From positions 1-26,223 of the IMG/VR virus record IMGVR_UViG_3300046004_001589: a stretch of DNA of 26,223 nucleotides; one strand, written 5' to 3'. Of this stretch, positions 1 to 25,487 are shown piece after piece; positions within the stretch are counted from its first letter, which is position 1; each line of letters opens with the position of its first letter. The DNA comes from a virus. Below the pieces are notes generated by a model that was not told the DNA's origin, did not search any database, and saw only the letters and a program-made list of their open reading frames with translations. Position numbers and translations under genes: made by a program.

Positions 1-5
1 CTCAT

Positions 6-125
6 TTTGTTTCTCGCATAAAAAAAACCAATCTGCTGGCATGGTGACAGTGGCTAATGATTGAGCCTCACGCTTCGCTAAATTGGTTTTGTTTAAATCA
101 TTATTTACGGGCTGTCACACCACAA
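6..125 (-). promoter_or_regulatory. Structured leader RNA A (loop-loop pairing)
   Basis: This would be the 5' leader of a minus-strand gene that starts at position 5 and runs off the left edge (ATG at 5-3). Read on the minus strand it has a strand GTGACAG (118-112), then AAACAAAACC, then a 9-bp stem formed by 90-82 and 32-24 (AAAACCAAT/ATTGGTTTT), with a run of Ts after the stem. Inside this stem are a small hairpin GGCT/AGCC (67-52) and the strand CTGTCAC (50-44), which is the exact complement of GTGACAG. The layout matches leaders at 16893-17012 and 24066-24181. The function is not known. Attenuation, a put-like antitermination element or a protein-binding leader are all possible. Confidence 0.55.
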
Positions 126-130
126 CACGC

Positions 131-160
131 ATTATATCACAGTGTTTTAATATATTCCAA
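131..160 (-). promoter_or_regulatory. Sigma-70-type promoter for leader A
   Basis: On the minus strand the -10 is TATAAT (136-131) and the -35 is TTGGAA (160-155), separated by 18 nt. Transcription would start near 125, exactly where leader A begins. The promoter overlaps the 3' end of the gene at 137-610, so the gene to the left of the window can be transcribed independently of the recombination operon. Confidence 0.6.
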
Positions 161-14741: not shown

Positions 14742-16124
14742 ATGCCTGTAAATACGGAACATCACGAATACAAAGAAAACAAAAAGCTATGGCGCAAATG
14801 CAAGCACGCAGTAGCAGGGCAACATGAAATACACGAACGCGGTGAAATGTATCTGCCAAAACTTAGTGGTCAAAATGACGCTGAATATCGAGCTTATGTT
14901 AAACGCGCATTGTATTACAACGCAACAGGAAGAACACTTGACGGTTTAACGGGAATGTTGTTTTTAAAACCGCCAAAAGTTGAATATCCTGCGGCAATGC
15001 AAGGAATTATTGATGACGTGACGATGACAGGATTGTCGTTGCATCAATTTTCTGAAATGGTAACGGATGACATTGTAACGGTCGGACGCTGTGGCGTGTT
15101 GGTCGATTTTCCACCGATAACTAATGCGTCAACCATGGCAGAAATGACGCAACTAGGTGCAAGACCTTATGCAACAAAGTATGATGCTGATTGCATTATC
15201 AATTGGAAAACTAAGCGCGTGAATAACGTGCAGATGTTGTCGATGGTGGTATTGAAAGAATCCGCGCAAATTGCCAAAGATGAATATGAATCAGAAAGCG
15301 TGACACGTTATCGAGTTCTTGATATTGAAACTGTTTATCGTCAACGTGTATTTGAAGAAGACAAGCACGGCAACATTAAGCAAGTAATTGATGATATTTA
15401 TCCGCTTAAAAATGGAAAAACCCTATCATTTATACCGTTTGAATTTATCGGCGTTCGCGATAATTCGCCATGTGTTGATAAACCGCCGTTGCTTGATTTA
15501 GTCGATGTTAATTTATCGCATTATTGCACCAGTGCAGATCTTGAACATGGTCGCCATTTCACTGGATTGCCTACACCTGTAGTTTGTGGCGTTCAATTAG
15601 AAAGCGGGCAATCGTTAAGTATTGGTAGTGCTAAAGCGTGGGTATTTCCAGACCCGAAAGCAAGCGCAACATTTTTAGAATTCACAGGTCAAGGTTTGGG
15701 TGAATTACGTGAGGCTATGCGTGAAAAAGAAAGCATGATGGCAACATTAGGGGCTAGAATGCTTGCACCTGAAAGAAAGGGCATTGAATCGGCTCAAACA
15801 GCTTCAATACATCGTGCTGGTGAAAATAGCGTATTAGCTTCAATATCGCAGTCAATTTCGATTTCACTTACTCACATTTTGGAATGGTTGCGTGATTGGT
15901 CAAATATCACGGGCGAAGTTGGCGTTGAGTTAAATCGTGACTTTGTACCACCAACCATGACCGCGCAAGATTTAACTGCGTTGGTGCAAAGTTGGCAGGC
16001 TGGGGCGATTTCGTTTGACACGTTGTTTTTAAACTTAAAAGCAAACGACATTATTGCAGCCGACAAAACTGTCGATGATGAAAAAGAATTGATTGCAATG
16101 AATCCAATGGGCGAGGTGTTATGA
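14742..16124 (+). CDS. Portal protein, DUF4055 type
   Basis: A 460-residue protein of the DUF4055 portal group. It forms the dodecameric ring through which DNA enters the head. Visible features: an N-terminal YLPKLSGQNDAEYRAYVKRA segment, 'GRTLDGLTGMLFLKPPKV', a core with 'MVTDDIVTVGRCGVLVDFP', and a C-terminal helical part with 'MREKESMMATLGARML' typical of portal stems. It lies after a block of tail genes instead of next to terL, which is unusual. The next small gene's ATG overlaps its stop. Confidence 0.8.
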   Translation: MPVNTEHHEYKENKKLWRKCKHAVAGQHEIHERGEMYLPKLSGQNDAEYRAYVKRALYYNATGRTLDGLTGMLFLKPPKVEYPAAMQGIIDDVTMTGLSLHQFSEMVTDDIVTVGRCGVLVDFPPITNASTMAEMTQLGARPYATKYDADCIINWKTKRVNNVQMLSMVVLKESAQIAKDEYESESVTRYRVLDIETVYRQRVFEEDKHGNIKQVIDDIYPLKNGKTLSFIPFEFIGVRDNSPCVDKPPLLDLVDVNLSHYCTSADLEHGRHFTGLPTPVVCGVQLESGQSLSIGSAKAWVFPDPKASATFLEFTGQGLGELREAMREKESMMATLGARMLAPERKGIESAQTASIHRAGENSVLASISQSISISLTHILEWLRDWSNITGEVGVELNRDFVPPTMTAQDLTALVQSWQAGAISFDTLFLNLKANDIIAADKTVDDEKELIAMNPMGEVL

Positions 16125-16258
16125 ATGCTTTAGAAATTTTATTTGATTTTTTAACATACATAATAATTGGCATTCCTTTATTTTTAGTTGTAGTTATTAT
16201 GATTGCATGGATATTTATGTTTTACTATTCAATTTTATGTTTTGGAGTATGTAAATGA
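16121..16258 (+). CDS. Small membrane protein, 45 residues
   Basis: Single strongly hydrophobic segment (about residues 10-37, LTYIIIGIPLFLVVVIMIAW and onward) with a short charged N-terminus and two late cysteines. ATG overlaps the portal stop, and the stop overlaps the next ATG. It would insert in the inner membrane. No family recognised. Confidence 0.6.
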   Translation: MNALEILFDFLTYIIIGIPLFLVVVIMIAWIFMFYYSILCFGVCK

Positions 16259-16377
16259 AACAGTGGTTAAAAGAGTTTGTACACAATTGCTTAGTTCATC
16301 CATTATTGCCATTTATGCCTAGTGAATATGCAAACAAGTTGCACGAATGGCATGGTGATTGGACGTTTGGAAAATAA
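16255..16377 (+). CDS. Small phage protein with HN-HP motif, 40 residues
   Basis: Begins MKQWLKEFVHNCLVHPLLPF and ends WHGDWTFGK. The pattern 'H-N-x-x-x-H-P ... H' occurs in short phage proteins of unknown role. It is preceded by TTTGGAG and coupled to the membrane-protein gene. A strong terminator follows directly. Confidence 0.6.
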   Translation: MKQWLKEFVHNCLVHPLLPFMPSEYANKLHEWHGDWTFGK

Positions 16378-16378
16378 T

Positions 16379-16409
16379 AAAAAGCCCGTTGTTTAGACGG
16401 GCTTAGTTT
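16379..16409. terminator. Bidirectional intrinsic terminator, copy 1
   Basis: Stem GCCCGT/ACGGGC with A and T flanks: AAAAAGCCCG on one side and CGGGCTTAGTTT on the other. It separates the plus-strand portal operon from the convergent minus-strand gene at 16409. The T tract is better on the minus strand. The same 31 bases recur at 25186-25216. Confidence 0.85.
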
Positions 16410-16681
16410 TATGGATTTGTTGCCTTTTCAATTGCAGATTTAATTTTATCGACCGTATCAAAGTGGCTTACGTTAGAATCGCCTGCAATTAACTCAAGTG
16501 CATCAATCAAAGCATCAATCATTTTTGGTGATGCAGATATTAGTTTAGCGTTAGCTTCAGTATTATAAAATCCACGATTTGTAATTTGTGCTACTTCTTC
16601 ACCATTAGAATCTTCGATGTAAATTCTATCAATGCCGTTTTTAACTTTCCACGGAGCTGGTGTGTGTTTAAATTCATTCAT
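16409..16681 (-). CDS. HTPAPW-motif small phage protein, paralogue 1
   Basis: A 90-residue protein starting MNEFKHTPAPWKVKNGIDRI and containing NAKLISASPKMIDALIDALE. The N-terminal HTPAPW motif and the 'ANAKLISASP' helix mark a family of small phage proteins of unknown function. A second member lies at 22385-22774. The ATG follows a GAGAG ribosome site in the 36-nt leader repeat. The terminator at 16379 ends the transcript. Confidence 0.75.
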   Translation of the reverse strand: MNEFKHTPAPWKVKNGIDRIYIEDSNGEEVAQITNRGFYNTEANAKLISASPKMIDALIDALELIAGDSNVSHFDTVDKIKSAIEKATNP

Positions 16682-16684
16682 TTC

Positions 16685-16720
16685 ATTCTCTCAATAAAAG
16701 CCGACCGTGGCTGTGGGTGG
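16685..16720 (-). repeat. 36-nt leader repeat, copy 1
   Basis: This block differs at one position (16704) from 25452-25487. On the minus strand it contains CCACAGCCACGG, a short AGCC/GGCT hairpin, TTTT and then a GAGAG ribosome site placed just before a start codon. Both copies precede small minus-strand genes that end at copies of the same terminator. Confidence 0.75.
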
Positions 16721-16721
16721 T

Positions 16722-16892
16722 TTAGTCTTGTTGGCTTTTAAACTTTAGCCAAAACTGCAAATCAATTTCATGACCTATAATTGACTCTTGCGTTTTAAAG
16801 TCAAAAATTGCACCGTTTTCTTTTGCCAAATTGTATAGCTTTAAAATCGATTCGTGCATTTCAATCTGAATGTCTATTTGCTGTTTTTTCAT
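16722..16892 (-). CDS. Small acidic helical protein, 56 residues
   Basis: Begins MKKQQIDIQIEMHESILKLY and ends WLKFKSQQD. Mostly helical, no cysteines, no membrane segment. The start lies 126 nt after the TATAAT promoter at 17018-17023 and is preceded by leader RNA B. It ends within a few bases of the leader repeat of the next gene. It is the first gene of this minus-strand island. I recognise no family. Confidence 0.6.
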   Translation of the reverse strand: MKKQQIDIQIEMHESILKLYNLAKENGAIFDFKTQESIIGHEIDLQFWLKFKSQQD

Positions 16893-17012
16893 AATTTTTA
16901 CTCATAAAAAAAACCGCTCTTTTTAAATCGTTCGCGCAGGTCAAGAAATGAACCTCGATTTAATAAAGTAACGGTTTTGTTTAATCTCTTATTTCAAATG
17001 GCGCGAACCACA
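16893..17012 (-). promoter_or_regulatory. Structured leader RNA B (loop-loop pairing)
   Basis: Read on the minus strand, TTTGTTT and AAACAAA can close a first hairpin whose loop carries GTTCGCGC (17008-17001 as the complement of GCGCGAAC). A second stem AAAACCG/CGGTTTT (16978-16972 with 16916-16910) follows. Inside it lie an 8-bp stem (16963-16956 with 16930-16923), a small AGGT/ACCT hairpin and the exact complement of the first loop strand (16937-16930). The stem ends in a run of eight Ts. Flanks AAACAAAACC and GGTTTTTTTTATG are identical to leader A, while the paired strands differ. Confidence 0.6.
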
Positions 17013-17017
17013 AACAA

Positions 17018-17045
17018 ATTATACCATAATCAGTGCTATAATCAA
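17018..17045 (-). promoter_or_regulatory. Promoter of the 16.4-16.9 kb island
   Basis: -10 TATAAT (17023-17018 on the minus strand) and -35 TTGATT (17045-17040), spacing 16. It overlaps the divergent plus-strand promoter at 17034-17042, so the two probably compete for RNA polymerase. Confidence 0.6.
17034..17042 (+). promoter_or_regulatory. Extended -10 promoter of the MuF-like gene
   Basis: TGCTATAAT carries the extended -10 TG motif before a perfect TATAAT. No good -35 is visible. Transcription would begin about 15 nt before the GGGG ribosome site of the head gene at 17066. Confidence 0.55.
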
Positions 17046-17065
17046 AAGAAAACAAAGGGGAATTT

Positions 17066-18100
17066 ATGACCGCTAACGAAATTTTACGCGACAAAACAAT
17101 TGCACACTCGATTCTATTGCAAAGGTACAACAAAGGAACGATAACTAAAATAATGAAGTTATTGTCTAGCGTTGAAAAAGAGCTAATCAAGGAATTAAAA
17201 AGCCTTGATTTTAGCACTGCTTGGAATGTAGATAGAATTGACAAGCAGTTGGAATCTGTAAAAACAATCAACACAGAATTGCACACTGCTTTATACAATG
17301 ATTTGGTTGACCAAATGCAAAAGGTGTCGGTATATGAATCTGAATGGCAAAAAACCACAGTTGAAGGTTCATTGCCGATAGTTTTTGATACGATAGCACC
17401 AGCACCGACAACAATAACCGCCGCCGTATTGTCAAAACCATTTCAAGGGCGATTGATACGCGAATGGGTAGATAAATTAGACGATAGTTCGTACACTGCT
17501 ATTCAATCGGCTGTTAGACAAGGGTTGATAGCTGGCGAATCTTATGACGTTATCACTAGAAAAATAATAGGCATAAAACCGCTTAGATATTCTGACGGAT
17601 TGCTTGCGTTAGGTAGGAATCAAACGCAGGCACTAATTAGCACGGCGGTTGCTCACTCGGTTAATGTTGCAAGGGATGAATTTTACAAATCAAACAATGA
17701 CATAATTCAAGGGGTTCAATTTTTAGCTACTTTGGATTTTCGCACTACCACAATTTGCAAATCACTAGATGGAAAAGTGTTTAAAATCGGAGAAGGAACA
17801 CGCCCCCCTGTCCACATACGATGCCGCTCAACAACTGTTCCAGTGCTTAAATCATGGAAGGAATTTGGGCTAAAAGAACCAGCCGAAGGCACGAGAGCCA
17901 GCCTAAATGGACAGGTAAGCGAATCAATAAACTATGAACAATGGTTAAGAAAACAATCAGTAGAAAACCAAAATGAAGCACTTGGAGTTGGTAAAGCTGA
18001 ATTATTTAGGGGTGGTATGCCGTTGGATAGATTTATCGACAACGGCAAAGAATTAACATTAGAACAACTAAGAATTAAGGATGGATTTAAAGGCAAGTAA
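17066..18100 (+). CDS. MuF/gp7-like head morphogenesis (minor head) protein
   Basis: A 344-residue protein with a helical N-terminal part (1-120) and a C-terminal Phage_Mu_F-type domain. The signature is AVAHSVNVARDEFYK, then 'FLATLDFRTTTICKSLDGKVF' and 'RPPVHIRCRSTTVPV', where the conserved Cys/His/Arg residues of the family are visible. These proteins enter the prohead next to the portal. ATG at 17066 follows GGGG. The last 14 bases overlap the end of the convergent HNH gene, so the HNH gene arrived without removing an essential end. Confidence 0.8.
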   Translation: MTANEILRDKTIAHSILLQRYNKGTITKIMKLLSSVEKELIKELKSLDFSTAWNVDRIDKQLESVKTINTELHTALYNDLVDQMQKVSVYESEWQKTTVEGSLPIVFDTIAPAPTTITAAVLSKPFQGRLIREWVDKLDDSSYTAIQSAVRQGLIAGESYDVITRKIIGIKPLRYSDGLLALGRNQTQALISTAVAHSVNVARDEFYKSNNDIIQGVQFLATLDFRTTTICKSLDGKVFKIGEGTRPPVHIRCRSTTVPVLKSWKEFGLKEPAEGTRASLNGQVSESINYEQWLRKQSVENQNEALGVGKAELFRGGMPLDRFIDNGKELTLEQLRIKDGFKGK

Positions 18101-25182: not shown

Positions 25183-25185
25183 AAG

Positions 25186-25216
25186 AAAAAGCCCGTTGTT
25201 TAGACGGGCTTAGTTT
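25186..25216. terminator. Bidirectional intrinsic terminator, copy 2
   Basis: Identical over 31 bases to 16379-16409, with the stem GCCCGT/ACGGGC. It again lies between a plus-strand virion operon and a convergent small minus-strand gene. Confidence 0.85.
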
Positions 25217-25451: not shown

Positions 25452-25487
25452 ATTCTCTCAATAAAAGCCGTCCGTGGCTGTGGGTGG
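25452..25487 (-). repeat. 36-nt leader repeat, copy 2
   Basis: 35 of 36 bases match 16685-16720. It fills nearly the whole gap between the KilA-N gene and the next gene. The AGCC/GGCT hairpin with TTTT could end part of the transcripts, and the GAGAG serves the following start. Confidence 0.75.

Follow-up and report, generated by a model that had tools for sequence, protein, structure and literature searches.

Introduction

Examples are already known of attenuators, of pseudoknot switches and of phage leader RNAs that act on themselves. In preQ1-I riboswitches and in the antisense attenuation of pT181 and pIP501, the choice of terminator or read-through depends on a pseudoknot or on antisense pairing. 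The closest described phage systems are three. The Gifsy-1 IsrK RNA is made from a phage promoter as a short transcript ending at an intrinsic terminator, the read-through mRNA encodes AnrP, and it is on this longer transcript that the short RNA acts (PMC4825925). In satellite P4, the CI RNA is processed from a longer early leader RNA in which internal complementarity (seqA–seqC) controls premature termination, with type-specific immunity (PMC4825925). The putL and putR RNAs of HK022 are about 70 nt, consist of two adjacent stem-loops with no pseudoknot, and suppress distant terminators with no need of a phage protein (PMC9378689).

Here we describe leader RNAs on the minus strand of a 26,223-base IMG/VR virus record (the whole stretch analysed, referred to as the window) that resemble each of these in part. 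They are like IsrK in combining a phage promoter, a short terminated RNA and read-through, termination of the leader being predicted, but they have a two-pseudoknot fold, precede many unrelated genes, and any action in trans is hypothetical. They share with P4 CI the character of an early leader RNA with internal complementarity, but have two long-range helices inside a 110-nt unit ending in its own U-tract. The HK022 put sites are also promoter-proximal phage leader RNAs present in one or a few copies per genome, whereas the leaders described here are ~110 nt with six helices, two pseudoknots and their own U-tract, do not correspond to put sites in anatomy, and head cassettes that are often closed by an ordinary terminator. 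Unlike in preQ1-I, few conserved unpaired nucleotides able to form a ligand pocket were noticed, and unlike in pT181 and pIP501, no conserved promoter on the opposite strand was noticed.

Two leaders in the window

The initial annotation had placed two leaders (A and B) in the window, each with 126 nt between a TATAAT box and a start codon, and this is confirmed for both on the minus strand, with the start codon of the B cassette at positions 16890–16892 (Table 1). The long-range pairing it proposed, with different strands in the two leaders, is present in both and is named PKa here. The boxes that it found common to the leaders also co-occur as described: the pattern AAACAAAACC and GGTTTTTT separated by 30–60 nt has two occurrences in the window and none in 100 shuffles. 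In addition, the boxes AAACAAAACC and GGTTTTTTTT are mutually complementary and form the two arms of a stem (P3), which ends in a U8 tract. The first observation is real and larger than was initially seen. A further covarying helix of long range (PKb), which in leader B includes G-U pairs, had been missed. A covariance model made from other leaders only, and without pseudoknots, matches leader A with 55.7 bits (E 7e-10) and leader B with 50.5 bits (E 1e-8). Searching the window with the covariance model found no third leader; further leaders are found in relatives. An ATG within TTTTTTTTATG overlaps the ribosome-binding region, and was rejected as a gene start because it is not conserved at that place, with ATT, AGT or ATC in some relatives.

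Table 1. Positions of leader RNA elements and associated features in the window
Feature	Position	Strand	Remarks
Leader A cargo gene start, cut by window end	1..5	-	start codon 3-5
Leader A, promoter -10 box	131..136	-	TATAAT, extended TGA
Leader RNA A, P1 to end of U8	20..125	-	
Leader A, PKa	112-118 with 44-50	-	GTGACAG/CTGTCAC
Leader A, PKb	96-103 with 55-62	-	TAATGATT/AATCATTA
Leader A, P3	80-90 with 24-34	-	
Leader A, P4	69-73 with 39-43	-	
Leader A, P5	64-67 with 52-55	-	
Leader A, AAAC	91-94	-	
Leader A, U8	20-27	-	
Leader B, promoter -10 box	17018..17023	-	TATAAT, extended TGG; weak -35 TTGATT at 17040-17045
Leader RNA B, first P1 base to U8 end	16906..17011	-	
Leader B, P1 hairpin	16998..17011	-	GTGG/CCAT; PKa 5′ strand inside its loop
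Leader B, PKa 5′ strand	17001..17008	-	GTTCGCGC; helix of the initial annotation
Leader B, PKa 3′ strand	16930..16937	-	GCGCGAAC
Leader B, PKb 5′ strand	16984..16991	-	TAAGAGAT; 5 nt ahead of P3 5′ arm
Leader B, PKb 3′ strand	16942..16949	-	ATTTCTTG; mostly within P5 loop
Leader B, conserved AAAC and P3 5′ arm	16970..16982	-	AAAACCGTT
Leader B, P4 around P5 and both pseudoknot 3′ strands	16923..16963	-	P4 TTAAATCG/CGATTTAA; P5 AGGTT/GACCT
Leader B, P3 3′ arm and U8 tract	16906..16918	-	terminator-like RNA end
First cargo gene of leader B	16722..16892	-	56 aa, no family found
Second cargo gene of leader B	16409..16681	-	90 aa, phrog_1273, no assigned function
Ordinary intrinsic terminator closing B cassette	16382..16404	-	terminator-like on both strands

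An RNA family and its distribution

By sequence and predicted fold, leaders A and B are members of an RNA family that is absent from Rfam. The window has no match in Rfam 15 at the gathering threshold, and permissive Rfam scans of the loci around seven leaders gave weak matches only, far below the gathering score; the suggestion of a new phage leader RNA agrees with this. None of the titles and abstracts found in our literature searches describes the family. A search with the two-box pattern identified 37 viral contigs and a Methylomonas MAG contig, and looser patterns gave extra types in which the P3 stem itself is changed (e.g. AAAAGCAC/GTGCTTTT and AAAAGCC/GGCTTTT). A covariance model of eight leaders with nested helices only recovers A, B and most of the other types, as well as new copies in relatives. 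The family as found is spread over more than 50 viral contigs and the one Methylomonas MAG contig, and has 21 sequence types. Most leader-bearing records have a single copy, and there are three in G008 (a relative of the window phage) and two in G021. Isolated phages gave no match to the window by megablast or to one leader by blastn, and among 201 genomes of the host family, that of G016, there is a match in the one MAG only. The link to Methylomonas is weak because the MAG contig carries phage genes.

Pattern matches lacking the fold were set aside as chance occurrences or ordinary terminators (L041, L042, L052, L060, L109, L113–L115, L117, L119, L121 and L148–L153, among others); L041 was the second genome match. 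In L148, L149, L150 and L153 an ordinary terminator has a T8 running straight into ATGRGTAAA with the start codon 8–12 nt on, and no leader fold. A model match at L062 3898–4016 (E 0.0004) has no leader features, and model E-values near 1e-4 are unreliable for this reason.

Topology and covariation

A single topology is predicted in all 21 distinct types, for an RNA of ~105–112 nt with six helices and two pseudoknots. P1 begins 4–9 nt past the -10 box, so predicted structure extends over the RNA from its very first bases up to the U-tract. In 5′ to 3′ order, the P1 hairpin is followed by the PKb strand, AAAC and the 5′ arms of P3, P4 and P5, and then by the P5 loop, which is almost wholly the PKb partner strand, the P5 3′ arm, the PKa partner, the P4 3′ arm, and the P3 3′ arm running into U7–8. 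PKa pairs the P1 loop with its partner strand lying between P5 and P4.

The types were folded singly by a topology search because MAFFT by itself does not align P1 and PKa correctly across distant types, and the covariation controls were shuffled and slid partners. The helices from the topology search are selected as paired, and three tests are less circular than comparison of these helices. First, eight leaders aligned with MAFFT show pairing in 95.3% of cells and two-sided changes in 19 of 37 pairs, compared to 32–46% pairing and 2–4 two-sided pairs when partners are slid by 1–3 columns in the same alignment. Second, when 5′ halves are swapped between types the mean summed PKa and PKb score drops from 34.9 to 19.0, and four of 837 shuffles attain their own native PKa and PKb value. 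Third, on an alignment (A5) fitted to P1, P3, P4 and P5 only, with PKa and PKb absent from its model, PKa and PKb pair in 85% of cells versus 67% when shuffled, with 70 two-sided cells versus 21 in shuffles.

A fixed-arm comparison across all types shows two-sided change in every PKa, PKb, P1, P4 and P5 column compared, and permuted arms pair at 47–65% (85% for P3); the fixed-arm helices were chosen as paired, such that the native percentage is true by construction. P4 and P5 of L044 were set by hand for this and for the linker comparison (see below). P3 covaries too, and in one type an A-U pair of the A-run and U-run has become U-A. Judged from these comparisons, all six helices covary, and the proposal that the compensatory changes reflect selected RNA structure is borne out by the slid and shuffled controls and by the covariance model. 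Homologues with change in only one strand were sought, and PKa persists in every one of the 21 types, its 5′ arm occurring in 13 versions, these being helices selected as paired. One leader, L040, is a natural double swap in which both strands of PKb and P5 are of the L023 type and both strands of PKa and P4 are of the L010 type, with the L023-type and L010-type segments alternating along the leader. Little sequence is common to the types beyond AAACAAA and the U-tract, with no pocket-like motif noticed, and the predicted shape of the RNA is conserved more than its sequence.

A terminator-like 3′ half and linker geometry

When the 3′ half is folded alone, the MFE structure is P3-P4-P5 followed by an unpaired UUUU in all six of the types folded (z between -3.2 and -6.3). 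Nineteen types have a U-run of 8; the other two have a run of 7, and one A fewer on the opposite arm (an A-run of 3). Run length is only partly independent because the search patterns favour 7–8 U. A predicted terminator-like stem (P3-P4-P5) with U7–8 is thus located ahead of the start codon, as it would be in an attenuator. At ~50–60 nt, the loop between the P3 arms greatly exceeds that of ordinary terminators, and the leader is not called as a terminator in a simple scan. We found no clear case of an alternative pairing that sequesters a P3 arm in the style of a textbook attenuator, and inspection of pseudoknot and P3 stability values across types revealed no clear trend.

The linker from PKb to the first P3 pair is 4–7 nt with a reach of about 31–50 angstrom, and the stacked P3-P4-P5 is 19–27 pairs or 53–76 angstrom, in all 21 types. 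The linker is too short for a straight stack in every type, and therefore PKb and P3 should exclude each other if the P3-P4-P5 stem is straight. With P3 open, the linker becomes 16–23 nt spanning 7–13 bp of P4 and P5. That the PKb helices and P3 are both conserved despite this exclusion suggests that there are two functional states. The main escape from the argument is a sharp bend between P3 and P4, with which PKb and P3 could coexist; in the L001 type these two stems are separated by an internal loop with about 8 nt per side. If P3 bends back in this way, PKa, PKb and P3 would together make a compact RNA that binds a protein, protects the 5′ end or persists as a stable small RNA, instead of switching. 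Structure from the first bases onwards and the retention of shape over sequence are consistent with such an RNA, but the P3-P4 stem in leader B is predicted to be almost continuous with little hinge room, the PKb linker is short in all types, and a U7–8 end directly before a gene would be left unexplained. We regard a compact RNA of this sort as improbable, at perhaps one chance in several.

We favour a conditional transcription attenuator, in which the leader is a two-state RNA alternating between knot and terminator, and give this a probability of about one half. Transcription would start at the base of P1, and in the nascent RNA the P1 loop would pair with the region between the P4 arms (PKa) and the strand just 5′ of AAAC with the P5 loop (PKb). 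In the knotted state, the P3 5′ arm (AAAC-AAAACC) would be the linker crossing P4-P5, leaving P3 unable to close over the U-tract, and while the knot is kept RNA polymerase would read through to the ribosome-binding site and the start codon about 12 nt on. If the knot is absent or undone, P3-P4-P5 would form a long stem before U7–8, leading to termination and release of a ~105–112 nt RNA. PKa and PKb can pair while the P3 3′ arm is still to be made, and we infer that read-through may be the default.

In most cases the start codon is 20–25 nt past the first U with a weak SD-like GGG or GAG between, and a U-rich stretch beside an SD can aid initiation. An alternative is thus that control is translational, with the knot freeing, or P3 hiding, the U-rich stretch and the ribosome-binding site 12 nt before the start codon. 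However, the SD and start codon are outside the folded region in both states with no conserved pairing to them seen, and the terminator-like U-tract would have no role, making this explanation rather unlikely.

Genes behind the leaders and genomic context

The gene behind leader A is cut by the window end, and in the relatives L016 and L020 the same leader as A precedes Rha-family genes. First genes behind leaders include Rha (PF09669, one with P63C), AntA (PF08346, with P63C), HNH_3 and GIY-YIG nucleases, an MT-A70 methyltransferase, and small family-less proteins. A type III toxin-antitoxin system (ToxIN), with a tandem repeat RNA and a gene for a ToxN-like endoribonuclease, was considered and rejected, as the leader is a single unit and the cargo (Rha, AntA, HNH, GIY-YIG, MT-A70 or family-less) is too varied.

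Many cassettes in the window's phage group hold one to three genes and are closed by an ordinary intrinsic terminator. Leader B sits between the portal and head-morphogenesis genes, oriented against these flanking late genes. In a second phage group the leader has a primase-helicase gene on one side and, downstream of it, small genes and then TerS and TerL, these names being given by sequence resemblance judged by eye. The initial annotation likened the leader position to put/nut antitermination sites, and a leader that confers long-range terminator resistance on RNA polymerase would fit with its being directly promoter-proximal, with the gene order in the second phage group, and with occurrence across unrelated phages, for which the host enzyme would suffice. 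But the strong terminators that often end window-group cassettes, the direction of leader B, and an anatomy unlike that of put (~70 nt with two stem-loops; PMC9378689) count against it; for the window's phage group, processive antitermination of the put kind is unlikely, and as a general account of the leaders we consider it very improbable, although it keeps some plausibility in the second group, where the terminase genes lie downstream of the leader. The initial interpretation is in this respect supported only in part, and a local attenuator is favoured because of the leader anatomy and the cassettes ending in ordinary terminators.

Several other repeated elements are present. Near-identical terminators (97%) at window 16376–16409 and 25183–25216 end two minus-strand cassettes and are possible cassette-exchange sites. 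A 36-nt element at 16685–16720 and 25452–25487 (97% identical) is upstream of two minus-strand reading frames, and has a short hairpin (GCC-ACGGTC-GGC) followed by TTTTATTGAGAGA (a U-run and SD), resembling a mini hairpin/U-tract/ribosome-binding site; a similar one is in G008 behind the leader at 29644. There is also a 27-nt direct repeat (93%) at 1438–1464 and 15363–15389, inside the sequences coding for helicase and portal.

Modular swapping of leaders and cargo

Leaders that are 99–100% identical are found before unrelated downstream sequences (about 52% identity), and leader interiors only 47–72% identical are found between flanks that are 87–100% identical downstream. One example is L003 and L032, which are 100% identical downstream, 93% upstream and 72% in the leader interior; a second is L010 and L036 (98%, 91% and 68%, respectively), and a third is L004 and L050, with 87% downstream and 47% in the leader. 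At the portal/head locus, the promoter is common to window B and G008, and the leader type and cargo differ. The multi-leader records (the window, G008, G021 and the record of L055) have two or three leaders each, always of different types. From these sequence relationships, leader types appear to replace each other between conserved flanks, with modular swapping of leaders and cargo. We note that in related phages window 16124–17066, G008 29590–30921 and G022 14810–15901 each have a cassette of leader and gene at or near the portal/head-morphogenesis junction, and that these cassettes differ in leader type and cargo.

This pattern is what type-specific recognition would produce, although recombination alone could also produce it. 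In an extension of the attenuator, a terminated leader, in which P3 is closed and the PKa and PKb strands are free, would pair with a nascent leader of the same type, block the knot and enforce termination. Leaders would then be self-specific, shutting off their own type through the two knot helices. Each cassette would in this way have its own RNA-based control of dosage or immunity to superinfection, comparable to that of P4 CI RNA, and recombination would exchange the types. The replacement of leader interiors within conserved flanks and the different types within each of the four multi-leader records are consistent with this, and there are precedents in Gifsy-1 IsrK and P4 CI, with a short phage RNA acting on its own longer transcript (PMC4825925). 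However, four records are too few to show mutual avoidance of types, and recombination of equivalent leaders could give allele swapping without specificity; we view self-recognition as a speculative extension, with odds well against it.

Returning to the attenuator itself, the accessory genes that the leader travels with are antirepressor-like regulators, homing-type endonucleases, a methyltransferase and orphans, and the leader would meter their expression. No Rfam model matches the RNA family, its double-pseudoknot topology or its use before mixed accessory genes, and two phage groups place this structured RNA before such genes. The more than 20 matched natural variants are a set for structure-function work. 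If the proposed switch is true, a terminator would be blocked by a pseudoknot that takes up the terminator's own arm as its linker instead of base-pairing to it, and the leaders would provide a testable RNA control over antirepressor and homing-endonuclease genes.
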